Part shown: piece by piece, positions 3,351-20,429 of the stretch
Layout: each line of letters starts with the position of its first letter
Numbering within the stretch: position 1 is the stretch's first letter
Notes under the pieces: generated by a model
Databases searched by the model: none
What the model saw: only the letters and a program-made list of their open reading frames with translations
Told to the model about the DNA's origin: nothing
IMG/VR virus record: IMGVR_UViG_3300025083_000286
Coordinates: 1 to 20,429 of that record
Strand: one strand, 5' to 3'
DNA from: a virus
Length of the DNA: 20,429 nucleotides
Made by a program: the position numbers and the translations under genes

Positions 3351-3617
3351 TTACAGTATCGCTTTGTAAGCTAATACCTTGCCCGAAGACACAGCAACAC
3401 TGTCAAACTTACCAAAGACAGTAGTACCCTCTGATAGACTAACTGAAGTAAGCGCATCACCTGCTTGTGTTGTGGTTGTTACCACACTGTCCTCTAATGC
3501 TTGAATAGCACGACAAGAATCAGTTGTAGAAGCACCGCCCTCAACCACTCTGAATCCGTAATCACCTGTGGCTGTTTGATAAAAGTTTCCTTCCTTTACG
3601 ATATTTTCGTAAGCCAT
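3351..3617 (-). CDS. Small virion-region protein (88 aa), one degenerate RV-GG-C motif
   Basis: An 88-aa protein starting at ATG 3617, four bases after the stop of the 106-aa gene, and ending immediately before the next ATG. Residues 23-41 (RVVEGGASTTDSCRAIQAL) resemble the repeat in the two flanking proteins but with one residue fewer between R and C. The C-terminal half (GTTVFGKFDSVAVSSGKVLAYK, 64-85, split here by reading as GTTVFGKFD then SVAVSSGKVLAYK) is a beta-rich ending of a kind I recognise in small phage structural proteins. Function is unknown; a decoration or tail-tip accessory role is plausible. The compact operon placement makes it a real gene. Confidence 0.66.
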   Translation of the reverse strand: MAYENIVKEGNFYQTATGDYGFRVVEGGASTTDSCRAIQALEDSVVTTTTQAGDALTSVSLSEGTTVFGKFDSVAVSSGKVLAYKAIL

Positions 3618-3942: not shown

Positions 3943-4469
3943 TAATCAAAAATGGTTTGGTCGCTAAACACCGCTTTATCATTGATTGCCAAAGAAGCGA
4001 TACCACTTTCGGTATTTAGTGTTATATTGACATAAGACTTCTCACCAGTACCTGTACCGCTGTTAGCCTCATAGTTCATCGTTAAGCCATCCATCCACCC
4101 ACTGATGGTCACAGTGTCGTTGTTGTGTAAAAGAACGCAGCAGATGTCCTCTCTGCGGCTCATAAGGTCTATTTGATTTACCTTATTGTCTACAGCAGGA
4201 GCTTGGATAGTAATATCAGTAGAAACAACACCCAATCCATTGGAGGTGTTCTTGTTTTCTGTGAATGTTGTAGTTCCGTCCTTTGGGTTATGCTCAAACT
4301 TTACGGTGTCTACAGTATCAACTTGAGTTACCTGTGTCTCATCAAGAGGATTAAAGGTAATCGTCAAGTCTTTTTGTAATAATAGGACAGCTTTCTTGAT
4401 ACCACCTGTAACTCGTTTGTTACAGTTAATATCAATATCGCTTAATAAAATGCTACAATTGAAAGCCAT
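3942..4469 (-). CDS. Tail-tube-like protein, second paralogue (175 aa)
   Basis: A 175-aa protein that resembles the 197-aa product of the preceding gene at both ends: MAFNCSILLSDIDINC and GGIKKAVLL near the N-terminus, and MNYEANSGTGTGEKSYVNI near the C-terminus, against MACNVNLGNDITYSC, GGIVKLGLV and VDANSGTGRSEKNRFQL in the neighbour. In Bacteroidota phages proteins of this type usually sit with the virion genes and look like major tail or tube proteins; this assignment is from family resemblance and not proven here. An intrinsic terminator lies just upstream (4481-4510), so this copy is probably expressed less than its paralogue and may be a minor tube, tail-completion or tail-tip variant. 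Confidence 0.62.
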   Translation of the reverse strand: MAFNCSILLSDIDINCNKRVTGGIKKAVLLLQKDLTITFNPLDETQVTQVDTVDTVKFEHNPKDGTTTFTENKNTSNGLGVVSTDITIQAPAVDNKVNQIDLMSRREDICCVLLHNNDTVTISGWMDGLTMNYEANSGTGTGEKSYVNITLNTESGIASLAINDKAVFSDQTIFD

Positions 4470-5177: not shown

Positions 5178-6062
5178 TTATGCAGCGTAGACAATCTCGT
5201 CGCCTTTCAAGTAAGAGAAACCTAACTTGAACTGACCCCAGATTTTATCAGAAGACAATTCAGCTTCGTACTTCATATCAATGGCACGAACGTCATTGTA
5301 CTCGTCAGTCAACATTACGATGTTCTGTGCAGCAGAAATCATAAATTGGCCAGCAGGCATAGATGGGAAGTGGATAACTTCCATACCGTAGTAGTTCGGT
5401 ACGCCACCTTCTACAACACCTTGTGGAGTTGTAGTGTATAAACCAGCGATAGCGATTTGGTAAGCTTGCATAGCAGCAGTTCCCAAGAAGATAGCAGGTT
5501 TGAAATCACGGTCAGCATCACCGTAAACAGCAGCCAACATAACGTCAGACATTTCTTCGTAAGCACCTTCCAATTTGTCAAGTACATTAGCAGAAGTGAT
5601 GGCTCCACCAAGTGGGAAGTCTATTACAGAAGCATCAGCAGCCATTTCAGTAGTCAATTCAGTACCTGCAACAGTCAATGCTTTCTCAGCAGACAATTTT
5701 GCGAAGTAGTCAAATACCCAATCCTTGAACTCAGCGTCCATAGTCTCTGGGTTGTTCTGACCTTTCTTCAAAAGAAGACCACGGTAAGAAGACTCAAGAG
5801 CGTTTTTACAGTTTAAGAAAGACCACTTGTAAGTAGTTACAGTCATTTCTTTTTCTCCGATTGTAGCAGCAGAGTTGCCGTCAAACACACAAAGGTCTGA
5901 ACCGAAAGATAATGTAGCGTCAAAGATTGGTACGTTTACCTTAGCTTTAACACCATCTACAAGACGGAAACGGTTTAGTACCGCTGCCGATTTTACCATA
6001 GTATCAATGAAGAGGTCTGGACGTCTGTCACCGTATGGCAAGTTTGATATTACTATACTCAT
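5178..6062 (-). CDS. Major capsid protein (probable)
   Basis: A 294-aa protein starting at ATG 6062 (MSIVISNLPYGDRRPDLF). It lies directly downstream of the protease-scaffold gene and upstream of the tube-like gene, which is the usual capsid position. It has the mixed alpha/beta composition and a length compatible with HK97-fold capsid proteins of Bacteroidota phages, and it ends in a beta-rich stretch (about 225-294: YYGMEVIHFPSMP, QNIVMLTDEYNDVR, IWGQFKLGFSYLKG). No short diagnostic motif exists for this fold, so the call rests on context, length and general resemblance. The 42-nt leader contains a TTGTAAATTAA copy and an A-rich stretch before ATG; a UUCG hairpin follows the stop. Both fit strong expression. 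Confidence 0.8.
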   Translation of the reverse strand: MSIVISNLPYGDRRPDLFIDTMVKSAAVLNRFRLVDGVKAKVNVPIFDATLSFGSDLCVFDGNSAATIGEKEMTVTTYKWSFLNCKNALESSYRGLLLKKGQNNPETMDAEFKDWVFDYFAKLSAEKALTVAGTELTTEMAADASVIDFPLGGAITSANVLDKLEGAYEEMSDVMLAAVYGDADRDFKPAIFLGTAAMQAYQIAIAGLYTTTPQGVVEGGVPNYYGMEVIHFPSMPAGQFMISAAQNIVMLTDEYNDVRAIDMKYEAELSSDKIWGQFKLGFSYLKGDEIVYAA

Positions 6063-6105: not shown

Positions 6106-7158
6106 TTACTTGCGGTTAAAGAAGTTGTTAATCATATCTACCTTTTCAGAAGTGATACCATTAAAAACTACTGTCTTGTCTTCTACCGTTTCAGCAACTT
6201 CTTCAGCCTTTTGTTCAGCAGCAAATTGCTCCTCAACTTCAGCTTCGTTAGCTTCTTCTTCAGCAGTAAATTCTTCAGAGACTTCCTCGGCAACTTCTTC
6301 AGTAGCTTCGTACTTGTCATCCTTCATTTCTTCTTTCTCTTCCTCCTCTTTGTGTTCGGGAGTATGAGCCATTTCTTCTTCATCTTCTTCTACAGCAGCG
6401 TTCTCTTCTTGAGACTCACCCATAGACGAGATGTGCTTTTGAATCATTTCAATGGCTTCCTTCAAATCAGAAACACCAGCAAACTTATCTTCAAAAGATG
6501 TCACAGCTTCAAGGAGCGAGTTATTCTCGTTCTCCAAAGCTTCAATTCTTGCTTCGTACTTGTTAGTCATCGTCTCAAATTGAGCCTCCAACTTACCAAG
6601 TTCTTTGCCAAAACTAAATTCGTTCATTTGTTCTTCGTTATTAATTGTTGGTTTAATATCTGCCTTAATCTCAATAGAGAAACCATTTATCTCTCCATTT
6701 TCAATTGCAGTAAATAATTCGTCAGACTCAATCTTTGCCTTCACGAATACGGTTCCGTTTGGTAGCTTGTAACCATAGTCTACAGACTTATCGTTATCAC
6801 TCTCTTTAGTCCAAACTTCAAGCATCACTACATCGTCAGTATCGTTCTGATGGTTAATGCCAAATGCGTTAAATAACCCTTCCTTAGAATACTTGTACAT
6901 AATCTCTTGGATTGTCTCCGCAGTGAAGCGTACATAGTAATATCCCATCTCGGTGGAGAAGCGTAGGATTTCCTTGTTAGGAATCATAATCGGGCCTACA
7001 ACCTCTTTCTTCTTTTCATCAGCAAACATCTGTACCTTCTCTACTTCATTGAAGTGGATGAAGTCCTCCTCAATAGCGGGCTTGTCTACAAGAGAAATCT
7101 TATACATCCCTTGAGCGATGTCATCTAATGTTATATCAAATAATGGTAAGTTATCCAT
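6106..7158 (-). CDS. XkdF-like prohead protease fused to an acidic scaffold
   Basis: A 350-aa protein. I chose ATG 7158 (MDNLPLFDITLDD) because the longer reading from 7209 would add 17 residues inside the upstream coding region. Residues 1-165 resemble the XkdF-like putative serine protease group: VDKPAIEEDFIHF (24-36), a candidate catalytic His in FGINHQND (H103) and the GEINGFSIEIK motif (155-165) with candidate Ser161. Residues about 180-240 are predicted coiled coil (KLEAQFETMTNKYEARIEALENEN region), and about 250-330 is extremely Glu-rich, as in scaffolding domains. Such fusions direct prohead assembly and are then cleaved during maturation. An internal ATG at 6627 (MNEFSFGKELG, residue 178) falls exactly at the protease-scaffold boundary and could give a separate scaffold. 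Confidence 0.82.
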   Translation of the reverse strand: MDNLPLFDITLDDIAQGMYKISLVDKPAIEEDFIHFNEVEKVQMFADEKKKEVVGPIMIPNKEILRFSTEMGYYYVRFTAETIQEIMYKYSKEGLFNAFGINHQNDTDDVVMLEVWTKESDNDKSVDYGYKLPNGTVFVKAKIESDELFTAIENGEINGFSIEIKADIKPTINNEEQMNEFSFGKELGKLEAQFETMTNKYEARIEALENENNSLLEAVTSFEDKFAGVSDLKEAIEMIQKHISSMGESQEENAAVEEDEEEMAHTPEHKEEEEKEEMKDDKYEATEEVAEEVSEEFTAEEEANEAEVEEQFAAEQKAEEVAETVEDKTVVFNGITSEKVDMINNFFNRK

Positions 7159-7927
7159 TCTTCTTTGCTTTTTTATGCCACTTTGGTAGCAGGTCATTAT
7201 CTTGTACATACTTTGGGTTAGACGGTCTTCCGTTCTTAACCAAGTACATAAATGCGTTTAGTCGGGCAAGTCCCCATTGTGTAGCACTTGTAACCTTTGG
7301 TGAGTGTCCTGTATTGAAGGCACCCATACCACGAAGCACAACACGCTTTGCGGCTCCCATACCTACCTTCTTATCGGGGTACTTCTCGTTATAAGCGTCT
7401 ACCTTAGTCTTTATAGACTTAAGAACTTTTGCAGATAGCTTTCCACCTTTTCCAACACCTTTAGGATTCTTGTTAGGAGTATCGCTCTTAGGTGCTTTGG
7501 GAGATTTCTTAATGCTTCCATCCTTGCCTTGTGTAGCGTAATCATCCTTTTTCTTACGATTACCATACGGGAGGTCAGCCACATCAGCACTTGCCTTAAC
7601 TGTTCCGTTTCGTATGCTTTCAGCTTTTCTAATTGCCCAGTTAACACCGCTCGTTCCTCCCCAACCAAGCCAAGCAACATAGCCTCTATCTTTCCAAGGC
7701 GTGTCCTTATACTTAGGGTCAATCGCAGCATTCTTTCTATGGCGATTAAAAGCAGCCATTCTCGCAATAGTTTCATACGATAGTTTTCTTTTTGATGCTA
7801 ATTGGTTTGCACGGGTCCAGCCCACAGAGGTCATTCCCTTAACTTCTTTTCCGTACTTCTTCTTCCACTCAAGAACTTTCTTGGCGTTGTTAGTAGCAGA
7901 TTGTGGGTAGTCGTTGTATGTAGCCAT
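7151..7927 (-). CDS. Head-module accessory protein with two conserved phage domains (258 aa)
   Basis: A 258-aa basic protein. I chose ATG 7927 over a TTG one codon earlier. Its end overlaps the protease-scaffold start by 8 nt. Residues 1-108 carry SATNNAKKVLEWKKKYG, VGWTRANQLAS, ETIARMAAFNRHRKN and WLGWGGTSGVNWAI, a domain I know from phage head regions, often near or fused to XkdF-like proteases. Residues about 185-250 carry RGMGAFNTGHSP, WGLARLNAFMYLV and GRPSNPKYVQDNDLLP, a second domain seen in phage proteins of unknown function (possibly the DUF5824 type; not verifiable here). A Lys/Gly/Pro-rich linker joins them. The biochemical role is unknown; context suggests prohead assembly or maturation. 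No nuclease or protease motif was recognised. Confidence 0.75.
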   Translation of the reverse strand: MATYNDYPQSATNNAKKVLEWKKKYGKEVKGMTSVGWTRANQLASKRKLSYETIARMAAFNRHRKNAAIDPKYKDTPWKDRGYVAWLGWGGTSGVNWAIRKAESIRNGTVKASADVADLPYGNRKKKDDYATQGKDGSIKKSPKAPKSDTPNKNPKGVGKGGKLSAKVLKSIKTKVDAYNEKYPDKKVGMGAAKRVVLRGMGAFNTGHSPKVTSATQWGLARLNAFMYLVKNGRPSNPKYVQDNDLLPKWHKKAKKNG

Positions 7928-7931
7928 CAAA

Positions 7932-15630: not shown

Positions 15631-16335
15631 TTTACGCATTGCCGCTTGTTGGCGTTGGTTCGCGGACTCAATCTTGTTTTTTTGAGCGAGGTAGCTCATC
15701 TCGGGCATTACGGTGGACATCTTTAGCATATAGATATCTGAGTACCTTCTTATATCTTCTTGCGCTAACATACGGACCATAGAGTACCAATACCATTGTT
15801 GGCTAAACAACTGTTCAGATGTAACATCGCCTTCCTCTTCCTCTGTTTCTTCCTCATCGGGTATTTCATAAAACACTCCAGAGAATTGCTTGAATAAAAC
15901 AAATTCTCTATTATCAAGAAATTTGGTAACAGCTCTGTAAATATCTTCAACGGGAGAATCTAAGATGGCTTGTTTATTAACCTCCTCATCCTCAGTGTTT
16001 TCATTGTCAAATTTAGTATGATGCTTGGGTCTTATAATTAATTCTGCTATAGCAAGGTCGTTCTCTGCTTCGGAATCATACTTCGTTTTACCCGTAATAA
16101 TTTGCTCAAGCATAATAAATTGCCCAAGAACGAGTTCCATAATATCTGTATATATATTGAACCTGCTATTAGTTTCATCGCTTATACTACCCTTCATTTC
16201 AATGGGGTATGTACTCACGACATTTCTTGTAGTGCTTACTTTGTCTTCTGGAGCAAGGGTTGATATGTAGTCAAGTATTCCATTCTCTTCTTTTGAATAC
16301 TTTGATATCTCAAGGTGCTGTCTGAATGTAATCAT
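15625..16335 (-). CDS. Tail-assembly-chaperone-like protein (236 aa)
   Basis: A 236-aa acidic protein. I chose ATG 16335 (MITFRQHLEISKYS) because its A-T-G-A overlaps the TGA of the large terminase gene. Residues 1-155 are mainly helical. Residues 158-170 form an acidic linker (EETEEEEGD region). The C-terminal part, WYWYSMVRMLAQEDIRRYSD (181-200) and VMPEMSYLAQKN (209-220), resembles the C-terminal region of Bacteroidota tail assembly chaperones (W-x-W, leucine-rich helix, 'D-I-x-x-x', then a conserved helix). Size and position do not fit a portal, which would be expected here. The last codons contain a canonical slippery heptamer A AAA AAC (15682-15676). Other readings, such as a head-tail adaptor, remain possible. 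Confidence 0.5.
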   Translation of the reverse strand: MITFRQHLEISKYSKEENGILDYISTLAPEDKVSTTRNVVSTYPIEMKGSISDETNSRFNIYTDIMELVLGQFIMLEQIITGKTKYDSEAENDLAIAELIIRPKHHTKFDNENTEDEEVNKQAILDSPVEDIYRAVTKFLDNREFVLFKQFSGVFYEIPDEEETEEEEGDVTSEQLFSQQWYWYSMVRMLAQEDIRRYSDIYMLKMSTVMPEMSYLAQKNKIESANQRQQAAMRKL

Positions 16336-17582
16336 AAAAACAAAGTTACTCCACCATCCTGTTCTTCTGCCGCACAATACGCACAGATTGCCAAGCTCAT
16401 AACCATATCATCGTGCTTGCCATCGGTGTTGGAGAATTGTAGGTTACCTGTAATAGAGTTACGCTTAGACTTAAAGTCGTAAAGCTCCTTTATCAAGTCC
16501 GTGTTCTTGGGTATCTTAATCACCTTGTCCTCAAACAGCTTGATGAGGTTACGGATAATCTCGGGCTTACTCTGTGCTGAGGTTGTAAAGGGTATAAGTT
16601 TGTAGAGCCTATCGTCATCTGTCAAGTCATCAAACAACAGGTCGTTATTGTTTACCTCAAAGTATGCGGCAGCTAAGTTCCTGTCGTGTTTTAGGTAGAA
16701 TGATTTTATTCTTTCCTTAAACTCCTCGTAGTCCATTCCCTCTTCCTTGTAATTGAATCGGTCTATGTCAACCACTCTGTAGTCATCAGACATCGCTGTA
16801 AGCACTGTATAATCCTGTGCCACACCAATATCCATTCCTATGTAGGTTCTCTCACATCTTGTATCTAATTTATCTACAACAGCGTCCTCAACATTGCTGA
16901 ACAAGGCATTAGCACTCACAGGCTTACACAAGAACTCTTGGTCAAACTGTGCCTTAGTCATACTCTTCTTAATACCGAGTACGGTCTTAGCTACATTGTC
17001 ATCGTTAAGGTCAAGGTATGTCCTTTTAATGGACTTAATCTGTTCCCAATTCTCTTCTTGCTGCCCTTCCTTGTACCAGTCGTAGAACCAGTTAGGGCCG
17101 TTAAATGTACTTGCCGCAGTAACCTTACCACCCGTCCTTGTAACCATAGGCAACAGCACCTCGTTGATAAAGTCAAGCTTCATATATGCCGCCTCATCCA
17201 AGTATATATAATCCAATGTGGCACCACGAAGATTATCCCCACTGTCAGCAGAGCGAAACTTAATAAATGAACCATTGTAAAAATACATCTCATTCGCCTT
17301 GCGGTCATACCTCTTGATTATCTTGGTCCATAAATCTTGGTGGCTACTGAACATCCCCTCAATGTCCTTCATCACTTTGTTAGCTTGGTCTTGTATTGGG
17401 CTGACCCAGAACATTCGGTGTTTAGGGTTGTTCAATGCTCTCATCACAGCATCATTCTGCATATAGAAAGTCTTACCCGTTTGTCTCCCTGCAACTAAAC
17501 AACTAATAAAGGGGCTGTCATCGTGAACGAGCCTATGGAAATCAACCTGCGGCTCAGTAGGTTTGTATAGCTTAATCTGCAT
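16332..17582 (-). CDS. terL: Terminase large subunit
   Basis: A 416-aa packaging motor that cuts and pumps DNA into the prohead. ATPase signatures: Walker A VAGRQTGKTF (30-39; Lys37), Walker B YIYLDE (125-130; Asp129, Glu130) and the coupling motif TAASTFNG (155-162). The C-terminal RNase H-like nuclease domain shows IGMDIG (Asp251), AYFEV (Glu309) and GKHDDMVMSLAI (Asp391/Asp392), so all three acidic positions are intact. The length is near the lower end for the family but complete. ATG 17582 overlaps the end of the small subunit by 11 nt and the TGA overlaps the following ATG. Confidence 0.95.
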   Translation of the reverse strand: MQIKLYKPTEPQVDFHRLVHDDSPFISCLVAGRQTGKTFYMQNDAVMRALNNPKHRMFWVSPIQDQANKVMKDIEGMFSSHQDLWTKIIKRYDRKANEMYFYNGSFIKFRSADSGDNLRGATLDYIYLDEAAYMKLDFINEVLLPMVTRTGGKVTAASTFNGPNWFYDWYKEGQQEENWEQIKSIKRTYLDLNDDNVAKTVLGIKKSMTKAQFDQEFLCKPVSANALFSNVEDAVVDKLDTRCERTYIGMDIGVAQDYTVLTAMSDDYRVVDIDRFNYKEEGMDYEEFKERIKSFYLKHDRNLAAAYFEVNNNDLLFDDLTDDDRLYKLIPFTTSAQSKPEIIRNLIKLFEDKVIKIPKNTDLIKELYDFKSKRNSITGNLQFSNTDGKHDDMVMSLAICAYCAAEEQDGGVTLFL

Positions 17583-18024
17583 CTACATCCAAATAGTCTT
17601 GCTCTTCGTCTGGAGCTGTTAAATCTATCGTAGCGGTAATATCAATCTTGGTCTGCTCCACCTTAGTGGGAGCCTTGTACCCTTGCATATCATTGATAAT
17701 CTTTATAGCGTCCATAGCAGCCTTCATATCATCGTTTGCTATCGCCATATCCCTAATACGAATTAAGGCCGTTAGGTTCGTTCCCTTGGCCGCCTCAATG
17801 CTCTTAAGCTCTGAGTTGGCTATCTCCATTAACGCCTTGTGAAAAGCTGTACCCGTAGTTCTCCTATCACGATAGTAGTTTGTGTAACCAAGCTCCTTAG
17901 CAATCTTACCCGAAGCATCCATACCGTTATCACGAATCCCCTCAAGGAACTTTGACTGAAGGTCTGTTAGTTCGCTACCGCGACCCGAGACTACTTTCCC
18001 GAAACTGTTTCTCTTACTTGGCAT
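17572..18024 (-). CDS. terS: Terminase small subunit (probable)
   Basis: A 150-aa protein immediately upstream of the large terminase gene and overlapping it by 11 nt. Residues about 19-70 look like a DNA-binding helix-turn-helix (LTDLQSKFLEGIRDNGMDAS, KIAKELGYTNYY), with a helical oligomerisation stretch about 70-115 (SELKSIEAAKGTNLTALIRI region) and an acidic tail (APDEEQDYLDVDAD). Such proteins recognise the packaging site and deliver DNA to the motor. No single diagnostic motif is present, so the call rests on size, helix-turn-helix character and position. It starts at ATG 18024 and overlaps the upstream small gene by 11 nt. Confidence 0.82.
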   Translation of the reverse strand: MPSKRNSFGKVVSGRGSELTDLQSKFLEGIRDNGMDASGKIAKELGYTNYYRDRRTTGTAFHKALMEIANSELKSIEAAKGTNLTALIRIRDMAIANDDMKAAMDAIKIINDMQGYKAPTKVEQTKIDITATIDLTAPDEEQDYLDVDAD

Positions 18025-18301
18025 CTGTAATCTTGTATAGTGGAATGTTATGTGCGCCTAACCTACCTGTGAAAGTTAACTCACTAAAGCTTGGTGCTGT
18101 CTCATCACTATGATACCATTTCCAAATAGAAGTCTTCACCCTTTGGATACAACTCCCACAAGAAGTCTTTGGATTCTCTTGCTTTGGAAAGTATTTACTC
18201 TTGCCCACCATAGAGTTGTAAAACTTAAACATCTCTGACTTGGTATCACCTTTAGGCATTGTTCCGCTCAATAAGGCTATTAGGAGTTCTTTAGCTGACA
18301 T
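18014..18301 (-). CDS. First gene of the late operon: small CxxC protein (95 aa), unknown
   Basis: A 95-aa protein, ATG 18301, the first gene of the leftward operon and overlapping the small terminase gene by 11 nt. A central TSCGSCIQRVKTSIWKWY (47-64) has a Cys48-x-x-Cys51 pair and a basic/aromatic helix. The pair could bind metal or be a redox pair. Only two Cys are present, so a zinc site would need partners from another subunit or the single His64. I do not recognise a named family. The position suggests a packaging or regulatory accessory. Confidence 0.6.
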   Translation of the reverse strand: MSAKELLIALLSGTMPKGDTKSEMFKFYNSMVGKSKYFPKQENPKTSCGSCIQRVKTSIWKWYHSDETAPSFSELTFTGRLGAHNIPLYKITDAK

Positions 18302-18409
18302 ATCTTACTGTTTTGGTATGATTGTATAGAAGTGTTTAATTGAGGCTCTTAGAATGCCTCTAATGGAATATACAATATTGAATGTTCAATGTCTTTCATT
18401 ATTCTCCCC

Positions 18410-18508
18410 TTATTATAATAAACTAATTATAATAAACTTTACTCCCATAGTAAAGTTTATTATGATAATAGTATTAGAGTAAAGTAAGACTATTATAATA
18501 ATAGTATT
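18410..18508. repeat. AT-rich direct and inverted repeat cluster
   Basis: The direct repeat ATTATAATAAACT occurs at 18412-18424 and 18426-18438 (14-nt period). TTATTATAATAA is a perfect 12-bp palindrome (18410-18421). ATAATAGTATT is a direct repeat at 18465-18475 and 18498-18508. A 15-bp inverted repeat is nested inside. Such clusters occur at operators and at iteron-type origins. Confidence 0.7.
18429..18463. repeat. Perfect 15-bp inverted repeat, 5-nt loop
   Basis: The left arm ATAATAAACTTTACT (18429-18443) and the right arm AGTAAAGTTTATTAT (18449-18463) are exact reverse complements around CCCAT. Neither side has a U run, so it is not a standard terminator. It would lie in the leader of a late transcript starting near 18521, or it could be a protein-binding dyad. 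Confidence 0.8.
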
Positions 18509-18527
18509 TATTATTATACAATATTCC

Positions 18528-18553
18528 CAAAGGTACTTCTGACATTCGTCAAA
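18528..18553 (-). promoter_or_regulatory. Possible late promoter: TACCTTTG -7 element
   Basis: The minus strand reads TACCTTTG at 18535-18528, a full match to the Bacteroidota -7 consensus TAnnTTTG, 227 nt upstream of the first late gene. The best upstream TTTG (18553-18550) is only 14 nt away, shorter than the usual 17-23 nt spacing, so the -33 part is weak or activator-dependent. Confidence 0.4.
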
Positions 18554-18556
18554 TCA

Positions 18557-18580
18557 CCTTCCCCCCGCCCCTTCCCCCCG
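18557..18580. repeat. C-rich tandem repeat
   Basis: Two copies of CCTTCCCCCCG (18557-18567 and 18570-18580) give a pyrimidine-only run apart from single G residues, followed about 26 nt later by T9. It is very unlike the AT-rich surroundings. Confidence 0.7.
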
Positions 18581-18690
18581 CTCCGTGAGGCCAGCTAATA
18601 CTCTAATTTTTTTTTACTCGGTCAATCCCTTGCTACCACTACGATACAGCTATTTCAATGTTAAGAAACTGTTATTTGATGCAATTTTAT

Positions 18691-18722
18691 TTTTTTATTT
18701 AAAAATCTTGAACATATCTTTG
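18691..18722 (+). promoter_or_regulatory. Possible early promoter: TATCTTTG -7 element
   Basis: TATCTTTG at 18715-18722 matches the Bacteroidota -7 consensus TAnnTTTG. A TTTT at 18691-18694, 20 nt upstream, could be a degenerate -33 TTTG. The predicted start is near 18729, giving an AT-rich leader of about 50 nt before the 85-aa gene. Confidence 0.5.
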
Positions 18723-18781
18723 TAGCGAAGCGCACAGGGCGTAACACATTAAAACTATTTAATAATTAAAACACCATTAAA

Positions 18782-19039
18782 ATGAAAAATGCAAAAGTAG
18801 TATTAACACAAAACGGACAAGCTAAAATACAAGCGGACAACGTGAGCGAATTAGTAAAGGCTTTATATAAGGGCTTAAAATTACAAAACAAGTTAGGCAA
18901 AAGGTTTTTAAAATTAGGTGCCACTACTGAAGTAAGTATACCTACAAAAAATACTAAATACCTACAATTGCAAAAACTAAACGCTAAAGGCTTTAATGAG
19001 GCGCAAATGTTAGCAGTCATTGAATTTTTAAACGCATAA
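18782..19039 (+). CDS. Small protein (85 aa), unknown, first rightward gene
   Basis: An 85-aa basic protein, ATG 18782, the first ORF behind the rightward promoter-like element. The leader is A/T-rich (ATTAAAACACCATTAAA), typical of Bacteroidota genes. The sequence suggests short strands followed by helices (NVSELVKALYKGLKLQNKLG; then KGFNEAQMLAVIEFLNA), with no Cys cluster, signal peptide or membrane segment. I do not recognise a family. Position and size are those of an early phage gene, possibly a regulator or host-takeover factor (inference). Confidence 0.68.
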   Translation: MKNAKVVLTQNGQAKIQADNVSELVKALYKGLKLQNKLGKRFLKLGATTEVSIPTKNTKYLQLQKLNAKGFNEAQMLAVIEFLNA

Positions 19040-19042
19040 TAT

Positions 19043-19240
19043 ATGAGCGCGGTATTTTTAGATTTTAGCACTAAGCAAGGGCAAAAGAAACGCCTTGCGA
19101 CAAAGGTCCGCAACCTTGATGCATCCAATAGGAAGCAACGCGCACAGGCGCAAAAGGAAGCCATTGAAAACACATACGCACTGCGTATAGATAGAGCGAA
19201 CGAGCAACGCAACACAAGGAAAGCGAAGCGCAGAAAATAG
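19043..19240 (+). CDS. Small Arg/Lys-rich protein (65 aa), unknown
   Basis: A 65-aa protein, ATG 19043, three bases after the stop of the 85-aa gene. It is very basic and largely helical (KKRLATKVRNLDASNRKQRA and the C-terminal NEQRNTRKAKRRK) with no hydrophobic segment. The composition suggests nucleic-acid binding. The coding stretch is noticeably richer in G+C than the gene before it. No family is recognised. A longer antisense ORF covers it but looks like a shadow. Confidence 0.55.
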   Translation: MSAVFLDFSTKQGQKKRLATKVRNLDASNRKQRAQAQKEAIENTYALRIDRANEQRNTRKAKRRK

Positions 19241-19393
19241 GCGCATAGCTGAACACATCGCAAGAGCGACAACGCCAAACGGCGGATAGTGGTGACCACA
19301 CTCAAAACGGACAAACCTTAAGCGGATACGTGCGCCTTGTTGCATCGTGTCGTAAGTCTTAGGGTTTGTCGGTGTTGTATAAAATATAGAATT
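19241..19393 (+). ncRNA. Candidate structured RNA or structured leader
   Basis: A gap with no ATG, about 51% G+C by hand count over 19241-19380. Potential helices: TCGC/GCGA (19258-19261 with 19266-19269), CGCC/GGCG (19273-19276 with 19281-19284), GTGGT/ACCAC (19289-19293 with 19295-19299), and a 13-bp helix with one G-U pair between GACAAACCTTAAG (19310-19322) and CTTAGGGTTTGTC (19358-19370). An alternative 8-bp helix ACAACGCC/GGTGTTGT (19269-19276 with 19371-19378) would make a three-way junction but competes with the CGCC hairpin. No tRNA features. It could be a leader controlling the 38-aa and gp88-like genes. Structure is seen in sequence; function is inference. Confidence 0.35.
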
Positions 19394-19510
19394 ATGAAAG
19401 CAAAGATTTACAGAACCCTTGAGCGGTTCAATGATGACAATTCGGGAACCTTTGAGGCAATTGCATTGATTGGTTTTTTAGCAATAATAGCTTTAGCTAT
19501 TGTAAAGTAG
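19394..19510 (+). CDS. 38-aa single-membrane-segment peptide
   Basis: The ORF MKAKIYRTLERFNDD... has a basic/polar N-terminal half (1-19) and one hydrophobic segment (about 20-37, EAIALIGFLAIIALAIV) ending in Lys. It resembles a small inner-membrane peptide with the N-terminus probably in the cytoplasm. It ends 5 nt before the gp88-like gene and begins right after the structured gap, with AT-rich ATAAAATATAGAATT in front. Size and hydrophobic profile could suit a holin-like or membrane regulatory peptide, but no endolysin is nearby, so no role is assigned. Confidence 0.5.
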   Translation: MKAKIYRTLERFNDDNSGTFEAIALIGFLAIIALAIVK

Positions 19511-19515
19511 AGCGT

Positions 19516-20253
19516 ATGCAAACCTTAGAGAAAATACAGGTAGATTACAAGATACCTAAGAACCTACTGAGCGTAGGTACGAGTAACGCAAAGACAAAGA
19601 AGAACGGCAGAGATACCCGTATACTTTACTTAGCACCTGCAACGCAGAACAGTAAGGGTGCAGATATGTGTCCCAATCGTAGCGCAGGGTGTACGGCATC
19701 GTGTCTCTTTACCGCTGGGCGTGGGCGAATGTCCAATGTAGCGAATGCAAGGATAAACCGTACCGAATACTTCTTAGATGAACCGAAGACATTTATAGCA
19801 CAAATGACCTTAGAGCTTGAGTGGGCTAATCTACAAGCAAAGCGTACAAATAGCAAGATAGCTATACGGCTGAATGGCACGAGTGATAGAGACTTTCTAT
19901 ACCTAATCAAGAAGTTTACAGGCAAGGACTTCCGAGATTGGGAGAACCTAAAGTTCTATGACTATACAAAGATACCGAGTAAGCTACGCAGATACGGTAA
20001 GTCAAATTATGTGCAGACCTTCAGTAGGGCAGAGGATAACCACGATGAGGCTATGAAAGCCCTTGCCGATGGATATCCTGTAAGTGTGGTATTTCGTAAG
20101 GAGTTGCCCGATATGTGGAACGGATACCCCGTAGTGAACGGAGATAGTAGCGATGACCTTATGCTTGACAGACCGTATAGTGAAGGCTATGTGTTGGGGC
20201 TTGTTGCTAAAGGCGATGGTAAGAAAGATACCACAGGGTTTGTAGTTGATTAA
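19516..20253 (+). CDS. gp88-like phage protein (mycobacteriophage gene product 88 type)
   Basis: A 245-aa protein, ATG 19516. It shows the ordered signatures of the phage 'gene product 88' family: GTSNAKTKKN (21-30), ILYLAPATQNS (36-46), a Cys cluster CPNRSAGCTASC (52-63; Cys52, Cys59, Cys63), TAGRGRM, RLNGTSD (118-124), FYDYTK (147-152), TFSRAED (168-174), VVFRKELP (191-198), VVNGDSSDD (206-214) and GLVAKG (228-233) to DTTGFVV. The length is complete for the family. The biochemical function is unknown. The three Cys and many conserved Asp/Arg/Asn suggest an enzyme with a metal or Fe-S site, but that is inference. Confidence 0.85.
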   Translation: MQTLEKIQVDYKIPKNLLSVGTSNAKTKKNGRDTRILYLAPATQNSKGADMCPNRSAGCTASCLFTAGRGRMSNVANARINRTEYFLDEPKTFIAQMTLELEWANLQAKRTNSKIAIRLNGTSDRDFLYLIKKFTGKDFRDWENLKFYDYTKIPSKLRRYGKSNYVQTFSRAEDNHDEAMKALADGYPVSVVFRKELPDMWNGYPVVNGDSSDDLMLDRPYSEGYVLGLVAKGDGKKDTTGFVVD

Positions 20254-20285
20254 ATAATTTATATATTGCACAAAAATTAAATGAT

Positions 20286-20429
20286 ATGGAACAGATTGGA
20301 AACGTGTGGATAGAAGCCACAGTGAAAGTAAGAGTGAACCGCAGAGTAACTCTTTGGAATGAGGATAGTGAGGAGTATTTGTTAGAGGCTATGTACGATG
20401 GAGACATAGAGATTATAGAGGTAGCAGAT
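20286..20429 (+). CDS. Start of an unknown rightward gene, cut by window edge
   Basis: ATG 20286 (MEQIGNVWIEATVKVRVNRR) is open to the right edge (48 codons seen). Another ATG at 20281 is in a different frame and closes after 10 codons. The visible part is acidic with alternating strands. It is separated from the gp88-like gene by 32 AT-rich nt. No family is recognised. Confidence 0.55.
   Translation, partial: MEQIGNVWIEATVKVRVNRRVTLWNEDSEEYLLEAMYDGDIEIIEVAD

Follow-up and report, generated by a model that had tools for sequence, protein, structure and literature searches.

A conserved array of palindromic words around a hairpin, a candidate paired replication or transcription control site in an uncultured family of marine phages

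Introduction

Which process could be served by a dense cluster of AT-rich repeats lying between the two gene arms of an uncultured phage? The DNA analyzed here (the window) is the virus record IMGVR_UViG_3300025083_000286, 20,429 bp in length, whose genes include, by family, the terminase large subunit, tape measure, and GP88. On gene content, the leftward genes are called late and the rightward genes early. The cluster, array 1 (18410–18521, minus strand), occupies the divergent gap between the early and late arms and has the highest repeat density of the window (49, vs 23 for the next region). It lies upstream of three late genes on the minus strand: orf1 (18014–18301, 95 aa), the first late gene, with a homolog in all 67 loci compared; a small terminase candidate (TerS; 17572–18024, 150 aa), proposed from its position and a conserved N-terminal HTH-like motif, for which the family search of the window protein gave no match; and the terminase large subunit (TerL; 16332–17582, 416 aa), assigned by a family match. 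A GP88 family gene is found in the early arm at 19516–20253, and this family is present in 9 of 22 related records.

A preliminary description of the region proposed an operator array or an iteron-type origin, with the hairpin possibly acting as an attenuator in the late mRNA leader. Here we compare the cluster with those of related phages and weigh these readings against others.

Results

Relatives and probable host

The orf1 search gave 36 loci, and each of three TerL queries gave 80, these being the best 80 of 194, 197, and 198 relatives with mostly the same contigs in all three sets. A pattern search of bacterial genomes for relatives returned 20 matches, none of which was confirmed. Among named phages, there was no DNA match to 17500–20429 and no match to the late protein encoded at 5178–6062, and the TerL matches, in 927 records, were all below 60%. 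The late protein encoded at 7151–7930 matched 212 records, again below 60%, and 183 of these are named Salinibacter; among the matches listed, the annotations were major capsid protein, prohead protease, or hypothetical protein. Salinibacter is placed in Rhodothermota, in a group with Bacteroidota. A candidate early promoter, TATCTTTG (18715–18722, plus strand), resembles the −7 box of Bacteroidota promoters, TAnnTTTG. From this site and the Salinibacter phage matches, we infer a host in or near Bacteroidota.

Array 1 in the window

On the late strand, array 1 runs in the order R1, R2, a 16-nt spacer, R3, the hairpin, R4, and R5. The word common to it is the palindrome TATTATAATA, which is degenerate at some sites. 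R1 together with a preceding TTG (TTGTATAATAATA) is at 18509–18521 (minus strand), and R2 (18489–18506, minus strand) forms the dyad TACTATTATTATAATAGT. The spacer (18473–18488, minus strand) separates R2 and R3, which are inverted relative to each other; it has opposite orientations in sublineages, and the R2–R3 spacers of loci L068 and L069 are exact reverse complements of each other. R3 (18458–18471, minus strand) has the degenerate core CTATTATCATAATA, at which many relatives of the same type have TATTATAATA or TATTATTATAATA. The central inverted repeat (18429–18463, minus strand) has perfect 15-bp arms and the loop ATGGG (CCCAT on the plus strand), and when each strand was folded as DNA, the z values were −6.55 and −7.43. 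R4 (18426–18434, minus strand; core TATTATAAT) overlaps the outer hairpin arm, and R5 (18410–18421) is the perfect 12-bp palindrome TTATTATAATAA.

The individual repeats listed in the preliminary description were all recovered: the palindrome and the hairpin just given, a 13-bp direct repeat, ATTATAATAAACT, at 18412 and 18426, and an 11-bp direct repeat, TATTATAATAA, at 18411 and 18491, to which another, ATAATAGTATT at 18465 and 18498, can be added. The cluster extends past the end first assigned to it (18508), as far as 18521. The core said to be shared by the repeats requires a correction. The repeats themselves are real, and the 9-mer TAATAAACT/AGTTTATTA occurs three times in the whole window, always inside array 1, but the core kept by relatives of the same type is TATTATAATA and not TAATAAACT.

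The region was compared with shuffled sequences, with boundaries that were picked after it had been seen. Among 5000 dinucleotide shuffles of 18400–18530, none contained a 15-bp stem and 37 contained a direct repeat of at least 13 nt; for 18410–18518, a 15-bp stem was reached in 2 of 3000 shuffles. The latter segment holds 39 repeated 9-mer positions against a shuffle mean of 5.8, a number reached in none of the 3000 shuffles. The repeats and the 15-bp hairpin are thus real and beyond chance. A scan of the window for the DnaA box TTWTNCACA found none in array 1 and a single match at 4124.

Conserved place and changing words

In the relatives, the array stays in place but varies in sequence, falling into about seven types that each have a palindromic word of their own. 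By assignment by eye, the 62 loci comprise 29 of type A, 9 of B, 8 of C, 7 of D, 5 of E, 3 of F, and 1 of G. The word is TATTATAATA in type A, to which the window belongs, TATATACTTAG in type B, and TACTAATATATTAGTA in type C; types D and E have ACTAT and TAGTTACTAT words, and types F and G have others. The words usually surround an inverted repeat, which is perfect in most members and has a loop of around 5 nt. This central hairpin is kept with unrelated arms, as in ATACTCTCTCT-TTATT, TAGTAGACCTCT-TTATT, TAGAATACTC-TATAC, and CTATAGATACCC-TATAC. Nearly all arrays outside type F have it, mostly with 9–17 bp and often with a 5-nt loop.

In 54 of 72 loci, the 1.8 kb upstream of TerL contained a perfect stem of 10 bp or longer; in some of these loci (e.g., L096, L105, and L217), the stem is not the unique-arm hairpin. 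The remaining 18 are accounted for by contigs that end before or in the array, by a shorter stem or one with a T-G pair (types B and E), or by type F. Elsewhere, perfect stems of at least 11 bp are rare, with 0–3 per record in six whole records and one in the window.

The absence of the repeat core from close relatives had been named as an observation that would count against a functional array. The exact TAATAAACT does vary, even within type A; the array, the hairpin, and the word TATTATAATA persist within this type, so the proposal survives the comparison. Taken across relatives, these patterns indicate a genuine site of control that has been conserved within a family of uncultured phages.

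Pairing in the hairpin

The stem was examined for covariation in 21 of the 29 distinct type-A sequences, eight near-duplicates being left out, with a structure drawn to suit the way in which the alignment placed its gaps. For the 14 stem pairs, 96.3% of 294 cells were paired; both sides had changed in 28 cells and one side alone in none, and the 11 unpaired cells all belonged to two outer pairs. Covariation scored 0.288, compared with 0.099 in shuffles and 0.03–0.10 (maximum 0.103) when the structure was slid. The numbers of paired cells and of cells with two-sided change were above all 500 shuffles. Two of the five measures were not above the shuffles, namely the pairs with two-sided change (5 vs 3.7, reached by 96 of 500) and the further pair types (7 vs 6.9).

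In a set of 36 distinct hairpins, the extended stems gave 563 cells, of which 516 were Watson-Crick pairs, 7 G-T, 3 A-C, and 37 other mismatches; by eye, the mismatches were mostly in the outer, word part. The hairpin patterns, which were written after the sequences had been viewed, matched 62 of 64 loci, the misses being L078 (incomplete) and L091 (type F). Over all quasi-palindromes, the mismatches were 13 G-T, 5 A-C, and 99 others, and the excess of 13 over 5 is not clear given the base composition. No terminator-like site was detected in 18250–18850, and an Rfam search gave no match at gathering scores. An RNA stem under selection should show G-U intermediates, and we therefore read the inverted repeat as a DNA-level element; the lack of one-sided stem changes favors pairing in DNA over an RNA leader.

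Promoter motifs and the flanking block

A candidate late promoter (18367–18388, minus strand) consists of TTGTATATT at 18367–18375, preceded by a small dyad, TGAACATTCA, at 18379–18388. Its motif, TTGTAnATT, recurs upstream of late genes. The window has six copies, all on the late strand, against a shuffle mean of 1.72, and only 1 of 100 shuffles reached six. Five of them lie between late genes on the minus strand (18367, 15622, 7934, 6094, and 4519), and the sixth is inside GP88, antisense. Six other genomes were scanned, and in five of them 37 of 47 copies were on the late strand and not within an ORF of that strand, many of them 14–80 nt before a late gene; G014 had two matches with no late-gene pattern. 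Of 53 distinct loci, 37 have the motif no more than 130 nt from orf1. On these grounds it is taken as a putative late promoter element, a candidate −10-only one; a role in translation is possible. As the motif lies between array 1 and orf1, the hairpin would not be in the leader of that promoter.

On the other side of array 1 is a CCTCnCGGAGCGGGGGG-like block (18561–18590, minus strand), recognizable by eye across array types, with which we group a TGACCG element (18619–18624, minus strand). Of 53 distinct loci, 52 have TGACCG or TGAACGG in the 620 nt upstream of orf1 (raw count). A bipartite pattern was too strict, matching 12 of 53. TGACCG is about 30–40 nt beyond the CCTCnCGGAGCGGGGGG block, and the sequence further out is unrelated between close relatives. 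The block might serve in packaging or in the exchange of modules.

A second array with the same words

The 7-mers repeated in array 1 of each genome were counted per 170 nt in the 16 larger records, four of which were scanned in part (G013, 20 of 29 kb; G015, 33 of 53 kb; G016, 40 of 52 kb; and G018, 40 of 43 kb). A second cluster, array 2, was found in the early arm of 14 of the 16, with 20–56 hits per 170 nt (record means 1.03–2.36). The next-best windows elsewhere had 5–13 hits, except for 14 in G007 and 21 in G010, which we refer to as third sites. No array 2 was seen in two type-F records, where the best other windows had 10 and 7 hits. The distance between the arrays was 3.1–5.5 kb in 12 of 13 records measured, and 5.3 kb in a further record, G013. 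Array 2 of G007 is at 3411. In G011, they are 32.6 kb apart on the contig, or about 6 kb if the contig is circular. Array 2 of the window phage itself would lie beyond the 20.4-kb record, as judged from G001, whose array 1 is nearly identical.

The best-scoring word set for array 2 was that of its own type in 12 of 14 records, with the own genome included. When the own genome was left out, same-type words on average outscored the best other set in 11 of the 13 records having a same-type partner; both misses were of type D, whose words overlap with those of type A. Many of these phages thus have two arrays, usually with the same words, as if both were read by one co-evolving DNA-binding protein.

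Besides the word palindromes, a perfect stem was found near the array-2 words in 11 of 14 records, and by eye a stem was seen at array 2 of G011 and an interrupted one in two type-B records. The perfect array-2 stems of those 11 records are 11–171 nt before the ORF. The 16 records contain 113 perfect stems of at least 8 bp (loop 3–7), and the 64 flanked by own words are all at array 1, array 2, or the third site of G007, where a 12-bp stem lies directly before a late-arm ORF. In G010, the word cluster with 21 hits is at a like place, with no stem listed.

Base skew was inspected at both arrays. In none of the 13 records measured does GC skew change sign across array 2. For AT skew, a sign change is seen there in five type-B and type-C records (G002–G006), in which the stretch between the arrays carries some genes on the other strand. 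Near array 1, the skew shifts at the point where the direction of transcription does. GC skew was dropped as uninformative with respect to an origin.

Proteins encoded near the arrays

Array 2 precedes a gene for a DnaA-domain-IV-like or ECF-sigma-like protein in 11 of 14 genomes. The products of type C (G003) and G013 matched the Bac_DnaA_C profile over the cut-off (2.3e-12 and 4.5e-14, respectively) and matched PDB 1j1v (DnaA) by sequence with E about 2e-4; that of type B (G002) matched below the cut-off (1.8e-4). The array-2 proteins of G004, G005, and G006 are DnaA-like by homology, and that of G015 by a motif seen by eye. The type-D protein (143 aa) had no profile match.

In G001, G007, G008, and G010, array 2 is followed by a sigma-like gene, and in G011 a 77-aa ORF comes first and a sigma-like gene further on, so that a sigma-like gene is at or near array 2 in five of six type-A genomes. 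The Pfam r4 matches of this type-A protein were below the cut-off. Its structural model was poor (pLDDT 55.5), and the 50 hits listed were mostly sigma or transcription-initiation entries with E of at least 0.003 and TM of 0.16–0.38; the sole listed hit with E below 0.001 was another kind of entry. A sigma-like protein was seen at 4327–5055 of L120 and in relatives.

A second DnaA-domain-like family, of about 142 aa, is encoded beside an exonuclease gene in 12 of 16 records. Its Pfam DnaA match was below the cut-off in G001 and in types B and D (G001, G006, and G017), and there was no such match in type C (G003). The model of the G001 protein (pLDDT 85.5) has a long C-terminal helix. Its nine best Foldseek hits were DnaA or bacterial replication-initiation entries, some with titles lacking DnaA, and one hit had E below 0.001 (3pvp, TM 0.78 by target). 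By profile or predicted fold, a stand-alone DnaA DNA-binding domain is found in type C, G013, and G001, the signal being weaker or absent in other members; these proteins are 136–179 aa long.

Both DnaA-like proteins are 27–28% identical between G003 (type C) and two type-B genomes and 98–100% identical within type C. Many other genes are 60–95% alike between types B and C; tail genes and some small ORFs are equally divergent. Two type-B array-2 proteins with the same words are 60% identical, and the type-A 142-aa proteins are about 39% identical between subgroups that have words in common. The tool kit of G001 includes Erf, an exonuclease VIII-like protein, a DnaB-like helicase, and a RusA-like protein.

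Linkage with the terminase genes

When the array type of each locus was compared with that of its nearest neighbor, neighbors with TerL identity of at least 96% being left out, it disagreed in 4 of 62 loci for TerS, 2 of 62 for TerL, and 20 of 62 for orf1, which lies between the array and these genes. This agreement with the nearest TerL and TerS neighbors indicates that the array type is linked with the terminase module. Some type-A and type-B phages have orf1 proteins with 92–97% identity, suggesting that this gene is swapped between phages separately from the array and TerL.

One TerL search yielded 44 contigs whose ends fall no more than 5 kb upstream of TerL; for 38 of them the end lies in the nearest 2 kb, at positions that are scattered. 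These ends, spread over about 2 kb, revealed no common DNA end at the array, assembly data being a weak test of this. Mosaic upstream sequences can explain the scatter, and the contig ends were rejected as packaging ends.

Discussion

Three readings of the array appear improbable in the light of these results. In one, array 1 would be a pac- or cos-like packaging site that the small terminase recognizes, and cutting would take place at the CCTCnCGGAGCGGGGGG/TGACCG block; its position next to TerS–TerL and the linkage of array type with these genes suit such a site. However, array 2 has the same words far from the terminase genes, the contig ends point to no common cut, and the HTH-like motif of TerS is, by eye, near-identical in types A and B, whose words differ. 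A packaging site read by TerS was rejected because this motif does not track the words and array 2 exists, and we regard the packaging reading as very unlikely. Still less probable is a transcribed hairpin acting in the late leader by attenuation, antitermination, or translation control. In the cases inspected by eye, the loops do hold one orientation toward the downstream gene (e.g., C-TTTA-G), array 2 can abut an ATG (G010), and G-T mismatches exceed A-C ones over the quasi-palindromes. Against this stand the 28 two-sided and no one-sided changes, the 7 G-T pairs among 563 cells, the unclear status of the G-T excess beside 99 other mismatches, the missing terminator and Rfam match, and the late motif on the gene side of the array. 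The attenuator suggested in the preliminary description was therefore discarded, chiefly on the missing one-sided changes and the missing terminator. The hairpin could instead be a mutational by-product of functional words, its arms being kept complementary by template switching or palindrome correction without selection. Both arms do change together with no intermediates, and the adjoining spacer is inverted between L068 and L069, but perfect stems of at least 11 bp are rare elsewhere, whereas arrays outside type F almost always have a hairpin, often with a 5-nt loop. We consider this by-product origin unlikely, if less so than the packaging reading.

The other half of the preliminary proposal, an operator array or an iteron-type origin, fared better, as the conserved place, the homogenized words, array 2 with the same words, and the DnaA-like or sigma-like genes in 11 of 14 genomes all agree with it. 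Our leading interpretation, held tentatively and a little short of probable, is that array 1 is one of two paired initiator or operator arrays with a cruciform-capable element, comparable to the twin origins of SPP1. The inferred role is initiation of replication, control of late or early transcription, or both. An origin is suggested by the conservation of place and architecture with turnover of sequence, the two-sided stem changes, the own-word array 2, the Bac_DnaA_C products, the DnaA-like model of the G001 142-aa protein, and the SPP1-like tool kit. A transcription switch, in which the arrays are operators or enhancers and the protein encoded at array 2 autoregulates there and turns on the late operon via array 1, is a serious possibility that we nevertheless judge to be on the improbable side. 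The arrays lie directly upstream of genes, the late motif is downstream of array 1, the third sites of G007 and G010 precede late-arm ORFs as operators might, the sigma-like gene in five of six type-A genomes (known from sub-cut-off Pfam r4 matches and a poor model) suits transcription better, and the lambdoid immunity operator pairs offer an analogy. The switch accounts less directly for the DnaA-domain proteins, operators need no hairpin of arbitrary sequence, and TTGTAnATT is also repeated at late genes that have no array by the word scan. Several other observations speak against an origin: the GC skew does not change sign at array 2, and the skew at array 1 follows transcription; the words are kept despite the 39% identity of type-A 142-aa proteins and the 60% identity of the type-B array-2 proteins; the DnaA match of the 142-aa family is weak or absent; the type-D array-2 protein has no match, type F has no array 2, and array 1 has no DnaA box. 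On balance, the sequence evidence slightly favors an origin over an early/late transcription switch.

If the paired arrays are origins, the following course can be envisaged. A phage DnaA-domain protein, probably a dimer, would bind the words of both arrays. The AT-rich words and the hairpin would let the site open by melting or cruciform extrusion, driven by binding and supercoiling, and a helicase would be loaded, so that replication starts at one array. The other array might be a second origin or a fork barrier, as proposed for SPP1 oriL and oriR. Replication would then feed recombination-dependent concatemer synthesis by the phage Erf, exonuclease, and RusA-like resolvase, and, when bound at array 1, the protein may in addition control the late promoter that follows it closely. 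In a more specific and rather doubtful version, a cruciform hairpin of free sequence, constrained only to be self-complementary and to have a short loop, and type-specific flanking palindromes would be read by stand-alone DnaA-domain dimers, the words and proteins being replaced together to give immunity-like types of replication or late control.

If these proposals are true, origin or switch sites would become predictable from sequence in a large group of uncultured phages. The word types and their candidate DnaA-domain readers would form a natural series for learning how such domains choose DNA. With a hairpin kept in DNA by complementarity and not by sequence, the idea that cruciform DNA is a working part of a phage control site could be put to a direct test.

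Comparison with known systems

A search of open-access papers, covering titles and the beginnings of abstracts, found no description of an array of this kind, and the closest parallels are partial. The lambdoid immunity operators OL and OR form two regions per genome with words that are common to both and differ between immunity types; here, in contrast, a hairpin lies between the words. An iteron origin with a DnaA-domain initiator is resembled in the repeated AT-rich words and in the initiator-like gene that several types have beside array 2. It differs in that the DnaA DNA-binding domain stands alone here and that array 1 lacks the DnaA boxes, TTATnCACA, of an oriC-type origin. The gene beside array 2 is DnaA-like over the cut-off in type C and G013, below it in type B, and by eye in type G, with no match in type D, and is sigma-like in most of type A.

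The promoters of the N4 virion RNA polymerase, as outlined in the consulted part of one report, are extruded DNA hairpins whose stems mix non-conserved and conserved bases (PMC4496689). They share with our arrays the use of a DNA hairpin in a phage control site. In N4, the hairpins are short, with conserved bases in the stem and a loop of 3 nt, whereas the stems here are mostly 9–17 bp with a loop often of 5 nt and flanking palindromes. Conserved stem bases with a 3-nt loop were not found among the arrays examined, in which the arms vary.

The nearest likeness is to SPP1, which, in the sections consulted of two reports, has two distant origins of similar layout, with repeats and AT-rich DNA, one inside the initiator gene (gp38) and one in the late region (PMC6316719, PMC3485210). 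The SPP1 sites are about 12–13 kb apart, compared with mostly 3.1–5.5 kb here. Our words, unlike those of SPP1, are palindromes around a hairpin, the nearby proteins are DnaA-domain-like or sigma-like, and the origin activity is a prediction. The resemblance to oriL and oriR, judged from the same material, lies in the two common-repeat sites per genome, seen in 14 of 16 records with own-type words scoring best in 12 of 14, and in the occurrence of a DnaB-family helicase, a RusA-like resolvase, an exonuclease, and an annealing protein in one phage (PMC6316719, PMC3485210).
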